From the NCBI RefSeq assembly GCF_003350375.1, contig NZ_QQAR01000004.1, positions 186,001 through 250,000 on the forward strand: a DNA stretch of 64,000 nt, in the 5' to 3' direction. A program made the translations under genes and the position numbers. Within the stretch, counting starts at the first letter, position 1; every line of letters starts with the position of its first letter. The DNA comes from Flavobacterium sp. AG291. Lineage in GTDB: Bacteria; Bacteroidota; Bacteroidia; Flavobacteriales; Flavobacteriaceae. Below are positions 32,019 to 35,877 of this stretch, piece by piece. Below the pieces are notes generated by a model. That model made no database searches, was not told the DNA's origin, and was given only the letters and a program-made list of their open reading frames with translations.

Positions 32019-32681
32019 TTATTTTTTTGCAAGACGTGTTGAGAAATCGGAGATAACATTCTGGTATTTGCGAAGTACCCTATCCCAGTCGTGAAACTGT
32101 TCATCAGCCTTAACACTTGTACCACTTGCCCCTGATGATTCGCTCACCAGTTTCACTTTAAATGTTAGCGGTTCTGATTTAGACAATTTTATTATAAGAC
32201 GTGTTCTTATAGTATTCTGTTGGAACGACTGCACACTCCATGCCGTACGCAGGTATGAAGTCTCTTTGTCGCTAACTTCAATAGCATCGAAATAATCGGT
32301 TACGATTTGGGAAGTAAGCTTCCATGCCTCATTAATATTCAGGTCTTTATTTACTTCAATTGAAAAATCAACATTAGCATGGTCAGTTTTAATGGAAGCT
32401 TCTTCAGCATCATCTCTTTTCATTTCAAAATAAACGCTTTTAGGCGCTTCCGGACCCGCTTTTTTTCCACATACCGTTGATTCATATTTAAGAAAACCCG
32501 GTTTTTCAACTTTCACTTTGTAGCATTCGTCTTTATCGATCTTTAGTTTATAGGTCCCTACAGCAACCTGCTGTCCGTTAACTATAATATTCGCATCAGG
32601 TTCAGAAGCACTCACTTTTACAGTCTGAGCCTGTATTGCCGCACATATAAGCAGCATCAGCATTGTAATTTTTGTTTTCAT
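32019..32681 (-). CDS. Secreted PEGA-domain-like protein
   Basis: A 220-residue exported protein (signal peptide MKTKITMLMLLICAAIQAQ). Residues about 20-90 resemble a PEGA domain: SASEPDANIIVNGQQVAVGTYKLKIDKDECYKVKVEKPGFLKYE, with the typical small beta sandwich and a pair of Cys (in DECYK and TVCGKK) that may form a disulfide. The C-terminal 120 residues are alpha/beta, unassigned (INEAWKLTSQIVTDYF, ESSGASGTSVKADEQFHDW). Periplasmic or outer-membrane-associated; PEGA domains are thought to act in surface-layer or glycan binding. No operon partner. Confidence 0.7.
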   Translation of the reverse strand: MKTKITMLMLLICAAIQAQTVKVSASEPDANIIVNGQQVAVGTYKLKIDKDECYKVKVEKPGFLKYESTVCGKKAGPEAPKSVYFEMKRDDAEEASIKTDHANVDFSIEVNKDLNINEAWKLTSQIVTDYFDAIEVSDKETSYLRTAWSVQSFQQNTIRTRLIIKLSKSEPLTFKVKLVSESSGASGTSVKADEQFHDWDRVLRKYQNVISDFSTRLAKK

Positions 32682-32801
32682 AATAGTATATTTTAAGGTT
32701 ATTTATGATACCTCAAAATTCACTATTACCTTTTTTGAATTACTTCTGTATTCAACTGAAAAGGAATAGGTTTTTACCTATAGAGAAATCTCCTTAAATA
32801 A

Positions 32802-32830
32802 CTTTCAAATATTTTTGAAAGTTTGAAAAT
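32802..32830. promoter_or_regulatory. Candidate operator of the GbsR-type regulator
   Basis: CTTTCAAA (32802-32809) / TTTGAAAG (32814-32821) is a perfect 8-4-8 inverted repeat just upstream of the -7 box, running into TGAAAGTTTGAAAAT (32816-32830). Nearly the same string recurs at 33389-33402 before the next gene. Confidence 0.5.
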
Positions 32831-32837
32831 AAATTTA

Positions 32838-32845
32838 TACATTTG
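32838..32845 (+). promoter_or_regulatory. -7 promoter box for the GbsR-type gene
   Basis: TACATTTG, exact TAnnTTTG, ending only 5 bases before the ATG at 32850; the transcript would begin at or next to the start codon. Confidence 0.5.
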
Positions 32846-32849
32846 GGGT

Positions 32850-33356
32850 ATGGAATTCAGAGAAGCAAAAAATAAGTTCGTACAAACCTGGGGGGCATTA
32901 GGCTCTCAGTGGGGAATCAATAAGACCATGGCACAAATTCATGCCCTACTCATGATTTCTCACGAACCGCTTTCTATGGAAGACATTATGGAGGAACTGC
33001 AAATATCTCGTGGTAATGCCAGCATGAACCTTCGTGCCCTTATGGATTGGGGCATTGTGTATAAAGAATTCAAACAGGGAGAACGCCGTGAGTTCTTTAC
33101 TGCCGAGAAAGACCTTGACGAACTGGCCGTAAAAATTGCACAGGAACGCAGCAAAAGAGAAATTAAACCTGCCCTTAAAGTACTTAAAGAAGTATCTACA
33201 GGAGTAAAAGATGATAAATCTGCCGAGGCAAAACATTTTACGGATCAGACAGAAAAGCTGTATGACTTTGTGCTAAAAGCTGATAACATGCTCGAAAAAG
33301 CAACCGAATATAAAGACAACTGGCTTGCCGGACTTGTTATGAAGCTAATGCGTTAG
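32850..33356 (+). CDS. GbsR/MarR family transcriptional regulator
   Basis: A 168-residue winged-helix protein of the GbsR group: FVQTWGALGSQWGINKTMAQIHALLMIS (about 9-35) is the conserved N-terminal helix pair, then the HTH with SMEDIMEELQISRGNASMNLRALMDWGIV (recognition helix SRGNASMNLRAL), and a C-terminal helical dimerisation part. GbsR relatives respond to osmolytes or hydrophobic ligands and usually control the adjacent operon. Start ATG 32850 is chosen by family N-terminus. Upstream is a good inverted repeat at the promoter, repeated in part before the next gene, implying autoregulation and control of the following membrane-protein and methyltransferase genes (inference). Confidence 0.9.
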   Translation: MEFREAKNKFVQTWGALGSQWGINKTMAQIHALLMISHEPLSMEDIMEELQISRGNASMNLRALMDWGIVYKEFKQGERREFFTAEKDLDELAVKIAQERSKREIKPALKVLKEVSTGVKDDKSAEAKHFTDQTEKLYDFVLKADNMLEKATEYKDNWLAGLVMKLMR

Positions 33357-33375
33357 CTTTTTTTATCAAAAAATG

Positions 33376-33402
33376 TTTCATTTTTTTCTGAAAGTTTAAA
33401 AT
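33376..33402. promoter_or_regulatory. Second copy of the candidate GbsR operator
   Basis: TTTCA-N8-TGAAA hyphenated palindrome followed by GTTTAAAAT; TGAAAGTTT and the following AAAAT match the site at 32816-32830 with one base indel. It lies 11 bases before the ATG at 33413. Confidence 0.45.
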
Positions 33403-33412
33403 TATCAATATA

Positions 33413-33751
33413 ATGAAAAATATTTTACATCTCAATTATTTCTTTGTAGGAACACCAATCGCTCTGGCGCTACTGGGATTCATTTACAATCCCTTATGGT
33501 TTATAGCTGCCATAATTCCAATATTCACAGGCTTTTTCCAGGTAATATGGGCAATATGCCTGTTCATTCAAAAAGATTTCAAGGACGTATTTCTTTCAAT
33601 TTACTTTATCGTAACCATTCTCTTCTTCCTACTATGGATAAACACATCGTGGCAGTGGATATGGGCTTTGCCTCCACTACTGGCAATATACCTGACTGCT
33701 ATATTATTTGTTGAAGCTAAAAACGAAAATCATGAACCTAACCATCCCTAA
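33413..33751 (+). CDS. Small integral membrane protein, 112 aa
   Basis: Not recognised. The 112 residues form about four hydrophobic segments (YFFVGTPIALALLGFIY, WFIAAIIPIFTGFFQVIWAICLFI, VFLSIYFIVTILFFLLWI, ALPPLLAIYLTAILFV) with a short charged cytoplasmic tail. The gene is 56 bases after the GbsR-type regulator and its end overlaps the next gene by 20 bases, so it belongs to a regulator-membrane-membrane-methyltransferase operon. The function may concern envelope or lipid stress (inference from regulator and company). Confidence 0.75.
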   Translation: MKNILHLNYFFVGTPIALALLGFIYNPLWFIAAIIPIFTGFFQVIWAICLFIQKDFKDVFLSIYFIVTILFFLLWINTSWQWIWALPPLLAIYLTAILFVEAKNENHEPNHP

Positions 33752-34163
33752 CTGGCTAATCATTTTTGGAGGATGCGGCCAGATCTTTACAGCCCTCATT
33801 TATCCATATATCAGGCATCAGGTATTTGACTGGTATAATGATGTAAAACAACTCAAACCCCTCAATCAGGAAATTGCAAAAACCTATGGCAGGTACATTC
33901 AGGGATTGAACTTCAGCTTTGGATTAATTGCTATTCTCCTTACTAACGACCTGAAGAATCAAACCCATCTGGCTATTGCCATTACCGGATTAATTGCTGC
34001 GTATTGGGTTGGCAAGGTGGCTACGCAAATTGCCTATTACCCCATGTACCAGATTCCGCAAAGGCTGCATTTCAAAATTGGCAGCTATTTTATGAACGTC
34101 TTGTTTGTATTATTTGCTGTTGTTTATACCCTGCTACTGCTTCACAACCTTAAATTATTATAA
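33732..34163 (+). CDS. Integral membrane protein, 143 aa
   Basis: Not recognised. Start ATG 33732 (MNLTIPNWLIIFGGCGQIF), overlapping the previous gene by 20 bases; an earlier in-frame start would overlap more. Three or four membrane segments: WLIIFGGCGQIFTALIYP, FSFGLIAILLT, LAIAITGLIAAYWVGKV and MNVLFVLFAVVYTLLLL. Interhelical loops hold conserved-looking aromatic and Pro residues (YPYIRHQVFDWYND, YYPMYQIPQRL). The methyltransferase gene follows after 11 bases. Tight packing implies the proteins work together. Confidence 0.75.
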   Translation: MNLTIPNWLIIFGGCGQIFTALIYPYIRHQVFDWYNDVKQLKPLNQEIAKTYGRYIQGLNFSFGLIAILLTNDLKNQTHLAIAITGLIAAYWVGKVATQIAYYPMYQIPQRLHFKIGSYFMNVLFVLFAVVYTLLLLHNLKLL

Positions 34164-34174
34164 ACCAATCAACC

Positions 34175-35050
34175 ATGACTACGCTACAACACCAACACAC
34201 CAGTCTTCTTCATGAAGACAACAACTTTAAAACCGCTGAACTCTATAATGAAGCTACAGAAGACTACGAATTCTGGAGCCGTGATTACAATATGCACTTT
34301 GGTTATTACAGTCCAACTCGAAGTAACCTTTTCAGAAGGGACAGCATGCTCAATGAAATGAACCGTCAGATATTTACTCGACTTACTACCAATAACAATC
34401 AAACATTTGCAGACCTTGGGTGTGGCATGGGCGGAACAATGCGCTATGGATTAAGGCATTTTCAAAACCTGAGCATTCATGGAGTAACATTATCCGAATT
34501 CCAAGCTACGGAAGGCAATAAGATGCTTGCCGGACTTAATGGCAACATAAAGATTGAAGACTACAATAACACTTCTTTTCAAAGCAATTCACTTGATGGT
34601 GCCATCGCAATAGAAAGCTTTTGCCATAGCGGACATAGTAATGATTCTTTCGCAGAAGCCTACCGCATATTAAAACCCGGAGCCAAACTGGTTGTATCCG
34701 ATGCTTTTCTTAAAAAAGAAATCAAAGACCTGTGTCCAGGCGGTAGCTGCTGCTATAAAAATCTTTGCAATGGATGGAGCCTTGAAAAACTGGGTAATAT
34801 TCCTTCTGTCAAAAAAAGCCTTGAAGAGATCGGTTTCAGCAATATAGTTATTGAAGACATTTCTTTTAGGGTTGCACCATCAGTACTGCATGTGCCTTTT
34901 GCAATCAGCGGATTTGTGTTACGTAAAATACTGAACCATGAAAAACTGAAAGCACAAACCATCAATAACCTTAAGGGCTCTCTGTTTGCTTTGTTATCAG
35001 GAGTGCAGATGAACAATTTTGGGTATTATATAATAACATGTACTAAATAG
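34175..35050 (+). CDS. SAM-dependent methyltransferase (class I, sterol/tocopherol-type)
   Basis: A 291-residue class I methyltransferase: motif I FADLGCGMGGTM (about 76-87), HGVTLSEFQ (motif II region), a motif with AIAIESFCHSGHSNDSFAEAYRILKPGAKLVVSDAF (motifs IV-V). The closing C-terminal hydrophobic part (LHVPFAISGFVLRKIL) may contact a membrane lipid. The pattern IES.CH..D...E..RVLKPGG resembles enzymes that methylate lipid-like or prenyl substrates such as tocopherols and sterols. A Cys cluster (DLCPGGSCCYKNLC, four Cys in 14 residues) is unusual and may bind metal. Last gene of the GbsR operon; converges within 5 bases on the UbiA-like gene. Confidence 0.85.
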   Translation: MTTLQHQHTSLLHEDNNFKTAELYNEATEDYEFWSRDYNMHFGYYSPTRSNLFRRDSMLNEMNRQIFTRLTTNNNQTFADLGCGMGGTMRYGLRHFQNLSIHGVTLSEFQATEGNKMLAGLNGNIKIEDYNNTSFQSNSLDGAIAIESFCHSGHSNDSFAEAYRILKPGAKLVVSDAFLKKEIKDLCPGGSCCYKNLCNGWSLEKLGNIPSVKKSLEEIGFSNIVIEDISFRVAPSVLHVPFAISGFVLRKILNHEKLKAQTINNLKGSLFALLSGVQMNNFGYYIITCTK

Positions 35051-35055
35051 CAGAA

Positions 35056-35877
35056 TTAACATAAACTACTTATCAGCAAAACCAGTCCCAACCAAAAGAT
35101 CGGTATACTCTCCACCCAAAATAACGTATAGTATTTTGGGCGTTGAGGCGTAGCGTAAACCGTAAATAATGCCGTGGTAATAACCATGATGAGGTTCGCC
35201 GCTATCTGGCGATAATCAACATGGATCTTTAGAAATTCTAAAAAGAAGAACGGCACTAAAAAAATCAGGTTCAGTATTTTAGTACGCCTCACTCCTATCT
35301 GCTGCGGTATGGTTTTAAGGTGTGGATCATCTTCTTTAAGGTCGATGATCTCAAAAATGAGTATCAGCATAATCACCAGCATAAACCTTTGGGTAAATTT
35401 CAGAAATATGTCACTATTTATGGGTGCGTGTGCATTTAATATAGGCACAACTGTAGTGATACCAGCCCAGCAAAATGCCACAATATAGATCTTAACCCCA
35501 CTCCAGTTTCGCAGGTTTTTGGTATTCGGAAAAAACGGAACGGTATAAAGGGCCGTCAGTACCAGAAATACTATTGCTGTAATTTGGGTTATGCGTTCCA
35601 GAAACAAGAAGCTTACTCCGGCTGCAATCAGCGCGAGCGTACTAAGAAAAACTACAAATTTTACCCGCCTTCCTGCTGTTTTTTTAACGCGGAAAAGTCC
35701 ATCGTACTTCATAAAATTATAGCTGAACATGGTTCCGCAGAATCCAAAAACCGCTACTGCCCAGTTAAAGGGAATATGAAACATATGGTTGGTCATCAGT
35801 ATCAGTGCAAGCACCGATGCGCCAACGTGCATACTACCATAGACATAGAGCCAGAAAAGCTTTTTTATAACACTCAT
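35056..35877 (-). CDS. UbiA-like polytopic membrane protein with degenerate first motif
   Basis: A 273-residue protein with about eight membrane helices. The second Asp-rich motif is near-canonical: EIIDLKEDDPHLKTIPQQIGVRRTK matches the DxxxD...TLPxxLG pattern of UbiA prenyltransferases. The first motif, normally NDxxDxxxD, reads SYNFMKYDG and lacks its acidic partners, so prenyl-diphosphate chemistry may be lost or altered. Possible roles: prenyl transfer with relaxed metal binding, or a non-catalytic member. It converges with the lipid-type methyltransferase with no terminator between. A -7 box ends just 5 bases before the ATG. Confidence 0.7.
   Translation of the reverse strand: MSVIKKLFWLYVYGSMHVGASVLALILMTNHMFHIPFNWAVAVFGFCGTMFSYNFMKYDGLFRVKKTAGRRVKFVVFLSTLALIAAGVSFLFLERITQITAIVFLVLTALYTVPFFPNTKNLRNWSGVKIYIVAFCWAGITTVVPILNAHAPINSDIFLKFTQRFMLVIMLILIFEIIDLKEDDPHLKTIPQQIGVRRTKILNLIFLVPFFFLEFLKIHVDYRQIAANLIMVITTALFTVYATPQRPKYYTLFWVESIPIFWLGLVLLISSLC

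Follow-up and report, generated by a model that had tools for sequence, protein, structure and literature searches.

A GbsR-type regulator gene with two operator-like sites and a variable set of membrane- and lipid-type genes in flavobacteria

In Flavobacterium sp. AG291 (Bacteroidota; Flavobacteriaceae), a gene for a GbsR/MarR-family regulator (gbsR) is followed by genes for two small membrane proteins (MP1 and MP2) and a methyltransferase (MT), which raises the question of how this compact unit is controlled and what its products do. The genes lie on contig NZ_QQAR01000004.1, within the 64,000-nucleotide stretch (positions 186,001 to 250,000) that was analyzed here and is referred to as the window. 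An earlier note on this DNA had read the unit as self-regulated, belonging to no known pathway, and perhaps concerned with modification of membrane lipids or quinones. Based on sequence comparison, some flavobacteria keep one small switch, consisting of the repressor gene and two likely docking sites, and species differ in the membrane- or lipid-type genes that stand behind it. That the GbsR protein acts as the regulator of the unit is highly probable, and we give the full model, in which a dedicated repressor switch acts locally on cargo that varies, a probability of roughly 0.6.

The regulator gene and its two operator-like sites

The unit runs in the order gbsR (start codon ATG at 32850), MP1, MP2, and MT. 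The gbsR gene (32850–33356, plus strand) encodes a 168-aa protein with an N-terminal MarR-type winged helix (Pfam MarR_2, 36 bits, cut-off 27), and among the 12 plasmid homologs listed of 174 (34–42% identity), those with an annotation are GbsR/MarR or MarR proteins. Residues 4–165 are covered by the CudC model at 58.4 bits, below its cut-off of 218. GbsR and OpuAR proteins of osmostress systems carry a six-residue aromatic cage (PMC6207618, Table 1), and GbsR-type proteins outside the osmostress group are reported to have none (PMC6207618). The FFxFFxxFF-like cage pattern is absent from the window GbsR, in which the stretch from residue 84 to 129 is free of F, W, and Y; therefore, the aromatic cage is absent as judged by the residue pattern of that table rather than by alignment to Bacillus subtilis GbsR.

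An inverted repeat, O1 (ACTTTCA-N8-TGAAAGT, 32801–32822), is proposed as the GbsR operator and overlaps the −33 element of a Bacteroidota-type promoter of gbsR (32814–32845, plus strand; −33 TTTG at 32814–32817, −7 TAnnTTTG at 32838–32845). The repeat had been noted as 8-4-8 and is indeed present, but its full extension is 10-4-10 (AACTTTCAAA-TATT-TTTGAAAGTT). A second copy with two mismatches, O2 (33374–33395), lies between gbsR and the cargo genes; the recurrence of TGAAAGTTTAAAAT at 33389–33402 had likewise been seen, and it ends 10 nt upstream of the MP1 start at 33413.

Conservation of both sites was assessed in two samples: a GbsR-anchored sample, independent of cargo, of the 48 among 248 genomes of the family that possess this gbsR at E ≤ 1e-30 (mostly one genome per genus), and an MT-anchored sample, conditioned on MT, of 86 loci with gbsR and MT, some of them counted twice. 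In the former, O1 is found at ≤2 mismatches in 47/48 loci (the contig of the 48th begins inside gbsR) and O2 at ≤3 mismatches in 47/48 (G215 is without it). The MT-anchored loci carry O1 in 79/86 (≤1 mismatch) or 83/86 (≤3 mismatches) and O2 in 84/86 (≤3 mismatches). With a Markov-1 model built on 40 loci (454 kb), 63 sites arose at ≤3 mismatches, a chance expectation of about 0.02 per 140-position search window, and the conservation of O2 in 47 of 48 genomes is therefore beyond chance. The exact O1-plus-promoter pattern occurs in 35/248 genomes, with one copy each and in 35/35 directly before gbsR (coordinates compared by eye), and in 0/200 genomes without gbsR (Fisher P 4e-32, phylogeny ignored); the reversed pattern was found 0 times. 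O1 is the sole zero-mismatch site genome-wide in AG291. Six loci (L226, L229, L234, L246, L248, and L252) keep both O1 and O2 although the stretch fetched for them shows no match to M3 peptidase, extracytoplasmic function (ECF) sigma factor, UbiA, or GcvP. The two operator-like sites of the earlier note are thus conserved and tied to gbsR, and the unit, with O1 overlapping its own promoter, is very probably self-regulated. Searches for a wider regulon returned 29 places versus 26 for the reversed pattern at ≤1 mismatch in 10 genomes (O1 and O2 included), and 34 versus 25 at ≤2 mismatches in the AG291 genome; because these counts are close to those of the reversed pattern, no genome-wide regulon is claimed.

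The promoter consensus and the 4–5 nt spacing to the transcription start site used here are those of PMC6847099. In 67/78 loci, exactly 4 nt separate the end of the −7 box from the start codon of gbsR (four duplicate loci removed by eye from this count; further duplicates may remain in the MT-anchored counts), so the gbsR mRNA should start on the ATG, and a leaderless message kept across genera is predicted. TAnnTTTG lies within 28 bp after O1 in 69/73 loci. O2 as the operator of a second promoter was rejected, with TAnnTTTG in 0/73 loci either in the 40 bp before it or in the 28 bp after it (positions farther up inside gbsR were not searched); since O2 is without an adjacent promoter box, it likely acts as a roadblock operator.

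In the mechanism that we infer, a GbsR-type dimer would cover O1, overlapping the −33 element, and thereby repress its own leaderless gene, and a dimer on O2 would stop RNA polymerase ahead of the cargo genes. A ligand, probably neither choline nor betaine, would release GbsR, and the released cargo (here MP1, MP2, and MT) would modify a hydrophobic, membrane-associated compound, with MP2-type proteins holding or positioning it and MT methylating it. Methylation of such a compound is the part of the mechanism that we advance tentatively, at somewhat less than even odds. The four GbsR-family members studied so far are all repressors, and a 2018 survey of the family found "no consistent picture" for GbsR-type regulators in Bacteroidetes (PMC6207618). 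Like Bacillus GbsR, OpcR, and OpuAR, the system described here involves a small dimeric MarR-type repressor family and A/T-rich inverted-repeat operators (PMC6207618; PMC7396694), one position resembling that of OpcR, which represses by covering the −35 element, and the other that of B. subtilis GbsR, whose repeat lies downstream of the start site and mediates roadblock repression (PMC7396694). It differs from the Bacillus systems in that both operator positions belong to one self-linked transcript, the aromatic cage is missing, no osmoprotectant genes are recognized, and the cargo varies and is of membrane and lipid type. CydE-type regulators are also GbsR-family repressors without an aromatic cage and with adjoining membrane-protein genes (PMC6207618), whereas here no cydAB genes are recognized and the cargo is unrelated.

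Variable genes behind the switch

Cargo was counted in the 48 GbsR-anchored genomes, of which G138 has almost no downstream DNA; the first open reading frame (ORF) after gbsR is missed if its frame starts well inside gbsR, as for the desaturase of G018. The pool consists of a TIGR01777 SDR (28 genomes), the c16 small membrane protein (22), MT (17, one broken), MP2 (13), c25 membrane proteins (13), a DoxX_3–DUF2071–MT2–4TM cassette (9), c17 (9), c63 (7), c119 (3), and a second DUF2071 protein (3), together with a fatty-acid desaturase in some loci. The desaturase, DoxX_3, and DUF2071 proteins score above Pfam cut-offs, the DCC1-like match of c63 is below its cut-off, and c17 is SRPBCC-like by our own reading, without a Pfam match. 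The earlier note had made its case depend on the genes staying together. This holds for MT toward gbsR, in that gbsR is present in 16/16 genomes of the shared sample whose MT ortholog is full-length; it does not hold for the set as a whole, given the MT and MP2 counts above and a contiguous order of gbsR, small membrane protein, MP2, and MT in only 5/48 loci.

MP2, the c25 module, and the DoxX cassette are nearly exclusive of one another. A module was counted as present wherever it lay in the stretch fetched for a locus (mostly 8.5 kb), which is wider than the operon; trait counts cover 47 genomes, and the exclusion analysis covers the 46 that are left without G138 (little downstream DNA) and G015 (contig starting inside gbsR). 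Exactly one of the three modules is present in 33 of these 46 genomes, none in 12, and two in 1, where shuffling predicts 7.3 genomes with two or more (P about 0.0001, which is optimistic because the modules were chosen after the loci had been seen); the three pairwise exclusion tests alone gave P values of 0.04, 0.05, and 0.04. Among 28 pairs tested, uncorrected, those commoner than expected include MT with MP2 (8 vs. 4.5), c17 with SDR (9 vs. 5.1), and c17 with MP2 (6 vs. 2.5), and those rarer than expected include MT with c25 (1 vs. 4.5) and the cassette with SDR (1 vs. 5.1). That the three modules almost never occur together suggests that they do equivalent jobs. A broader proposal, which we regard as possible but unlikely, is that of a regulatory "socket": one ligand-responsive repressor with promoter and roadblock operators would be kept across the family and alternative, exclusive membrane-modifying modules exchanged behind it, with genera answering the same signal through distinct envelope chemistries, which might protect them from membrane-active agents.

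Less probable again is a defensive account, by which the cargo diversifies for protection against phage, toxins, or competitors, and its turnover reflects an arms race at the envelope. The constancy of the switch beside interchangeable membrane modules is consistent with it, as is the distribution of cargo on the GbsR gene tree (poorly resolved, with 21/45 inner branches weakly supported), which is about as scattered as shuffled labels (observed/shuffled changes: MT 12/13.5, MP2 10/11.4, c25 12/11.4, cassette 8/8.4, SDR 13/15.2, c16 15/15.6). However, MT distances track GcvP distances (r 0.79; 44 loci, 946 pairs), a sign that loss during descent is a better account than rapid exchange; descent with repeated loss, rather than free exchange, may therefore explain much of the cargo pattern. 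Furthermore, no specific PADLOC match was obtained among the 10 proteins scanned, the matches of MT to mad2 and of GbsR to Csa3 and SoFic being explained by shared methyltransferase and helix-turn-helix domains.

Individual loci add detail on the cargo. In L251 (G051:C12), where the gbsR frame is intact and both sites are kept, MT and the TIGR01777 gene are fragmented, the cargo apparently decaying. The DoxX_3–DUF2071–MT2–4TM cassette occurs in L154 (3956–6209) and L180 (3547–5783), where the fetched stretches show neither a GbsR match nor an operator-like site, so it is possible as an independent four-gene module. One cargo protein of L242 has a PEMT match of 24.3 bits, just under the cut-off of 25. 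The TIGR01777 paralog of the AG291 genome sits with YceI and DnaJ/GrpE and is uninformative, and the c17 query gave only a 25% partial match in that genome. A lead to a light or photolyase context yielded no photolyase among the scanned proteins and nothing relevant in a literature search for LitR.

The membrane proteins and the methyltransferase

The two polytopic proteins had been described as unknown and as overlapping by 20 bases, and both statements stand. MP1 (33413–33751, plus strand; 112 aa) is a small, fast-evolving protein without a Pfam or NCBIfam match, with blastp matches of 30–49% identity in 6/80 genome-contig loci; it is weakly related to the c16 family (11.9 bits with the c16 profile), which often provides the first gene after gbsR. 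MP2 (33732–34163, plus strand; 143 aa) has a match to DUF4345 (PF14248) alone, at 16.9 bits and thus below the gathering cut-off of 26.5; the best family member matches at E 0.00045, but only 6/17 members do so at E ≤ 0.1. An AlphaFold2 model of MP2 has four helices (mean predicted local distance difference test, pLDDT, 85.6), and its sequence profile found no match in PDB up to E 1. Resemblances of the model to IgE receptor, connexin, NACHO, sigma-2 receptor, and other folds were rejected as helical-bundle noise (Foldseek best E 0.35, best Z 9.3).

MP2 is strongly conserved, with a median identity of 77% over pairs of 47 loci and saturated 4-fold sites. Recent transfer was rejected, as the 4-fold site difference is 0.32 compared with 0.32–0.34 for other genes, and the high identity is therefore ascribed to strong purifying selection. 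Strong MP2 matches occur without gbsR in 4/17 genomes (G039, G056, G085, and G114). In L173 and L176, from genomes without this gbsR, a lone MP2 gene directly follows the M3 peptidase gene, as though these genomes had either lost the switch or never gained it. In a single case (L177), MP2 adjoins an LpxR-like gene.

MT (34175–35050, plus strand) is a class I S-adenosylmethionine methyltransferase (Pfam Methyltransf_25, 41.1 bits, cut-off 27; mean pLDDT of the model 84.9), and its closest orthologs by name are from Flavobacterium. By sequence and structure, it is closest to TleD, AtmM, RebM, and sarcosine/dimethylglycine-, phosphoethanolamine-, and cyclopropane-type enzymes, with which it shares the class I fold; its nearest solved relatives are methyltransferases of small molecules, phosphobases, and acyl chains. 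It differs from the RebM/AtmM/TleD-type relatives in being only 19–22% identical in the 13 best fold rows, and it is below the NCBIfam cut-off for each of the 24 families matched. As a cyclopropane-fatty-acid synthase, MT passes PF02353 (36.7 bits, cut-off 27) and fails PRK11705 (45.2 bits vs. 400), the former match being unspecific because PF02353 is likewise passed by two other proteins encoded in this genome. Invariant residues among homologs are E147-S148 and C150-H151-x-G153, which, judging from the fold, are probably at the active site. The letters of the Cys-rich cluster pointed out earlier (DLCPGGSCCYKNLC) are present, but their conservation is not borne out: C187 is kept in 19, C192 in 1, C193 in 6, and C198 in 22 of 22 homologs, and with one of four Cys invariant there is no conserved cluster and a metal site is rejected. 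A 30%-identical MT relative in L255 (5309–7623) adjoins an MPAB/Lcp (rubber-oxygenase-type) oxygenase (63 bits, cut-off 23), a single-case hint at hydrophobic substrates.

Weighing the switch against other explanations

Several observations weigh against a dedicated switch with membrane-directed cargo. The left half of O2 is degenerate in many loci, with 0 mismatches in only 20/48, and O1–O2 looping may be an alternative arrangement; looping by helical phasing was rejected, as the spacing peaks at 566–567 and 571–572 are about half a turn apart (judged by eye) and phasing is therefore not supported. The unit is patchy, with a strong MP2 match in 3/395 genomes of a phylum sample and a weak match in one, and among the same-genus genomes listed, strong MP2 matches are the window's own and one other. 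The cargo families differ widely enough that they need not share a single chemistry. The fold matches of MP2 do not exceed what helical bundles in general would be expected to give, and those of MT include N-, O-, and C-methyltransferases, so no single substrate is indicated.

With regard to O2, an RNA role is improbable, by which it would form a hairpin in the leader of the cargo genes and tune their translation or transcription instead of serving as a DNA operator. The palindrome of O2 ends close to the next ATG, at a median distance of 16 nt (8–25 nt in 69/73 loci), and in some loci of Aquimarina and Dokdonia the two arms have changed in a matching way (AGTTTCA/TGAAACT). However, a DNA site that binds a dimer would be just as likely to show such symmetric changes, the left arms are unmatched in many loci, and O1, which is untranscribed according to the promoter geometry, has the same arms and N8 spacing.

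The genes around the unit bear on its suggested connection to quinones. MT ends 5 bp before a convergent gene for a UbiA-labeled polytopic protein (35056–35877, minus strand), a syntenic neighbor outside the unit. UbiA proteins have two Asp-rich motifs, and in the labeled protein D179 and D183 (DxxxD) are invariant in 10 aligned homologs. Weak resemblance to UbiE/MenG models is seen for MT (23 bits against a cut-off of 158) and to UbiE for MT2 of other loci (23 bits). A quinone or isoprenoid pathway shared with this neighbor is nevertheless quite unlikely: the UbiA-like gene is convergent with the unit and matched no UbiA model of Pfam or NCBIfam, in 34/48 genomes the unit is directly followed by an ECF sigma gene that lies between the two, and the UbiA-like gene is also found beside GcvP in L173 and L176, which are without this gbsR. 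The quinone part of the earlier interpretation is thus not supported, and its membrane-lipid part is plausible; as had been proposed, no known pathway is recognized for the unit. Least likely of all is an osmoprotectant system sensing choline or betaine as in Bacillus GbsR/OpuAR, for which the distant CudC similarity and a weak sarcosine/dimethylglycine methyltransferase match of MT (39 bits, cut-off 550) may be cited, but the window GbsR is without the aromatic cage of those proteins (PMC6207618, Table 1), and no choline dehydrogenase or Opu transporter was found among the Pfam-scanned cargo proteins, which comprise part of the cargo ORFs.

In many relatives, the sigma factor gene (TIGR02943-like) is accompanied by genes for one or two anti-sigma-type proteins of about 90 aa between the unit and the UbiA-like gene (e.g., L037:4308–5249), all missing from the window. 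Upstream, an M3 peptidase gene is present in 21/31 loci; in the window, the divergent neighbor of gbsR (32019–32681, minus strand) encodes a 220-aa protein with a sub-threshold PEGA match.

A literature search of open-licence papers found no publication on this gbsR unit. Regulation by GbsR is already known, and the switch-plus-cargo arrangement in flavobacteria is what is added here. One clade of the Bacteroidetes GbsR-type regulators thereby gains a likely operator, a likely one-operon regulon, and a defined gene pool, and the near-exclusive modules offer a comparative handle on the MP2/DUF4345-like, DUF2071, DoxX_3, TIGR01777, and c25 families.

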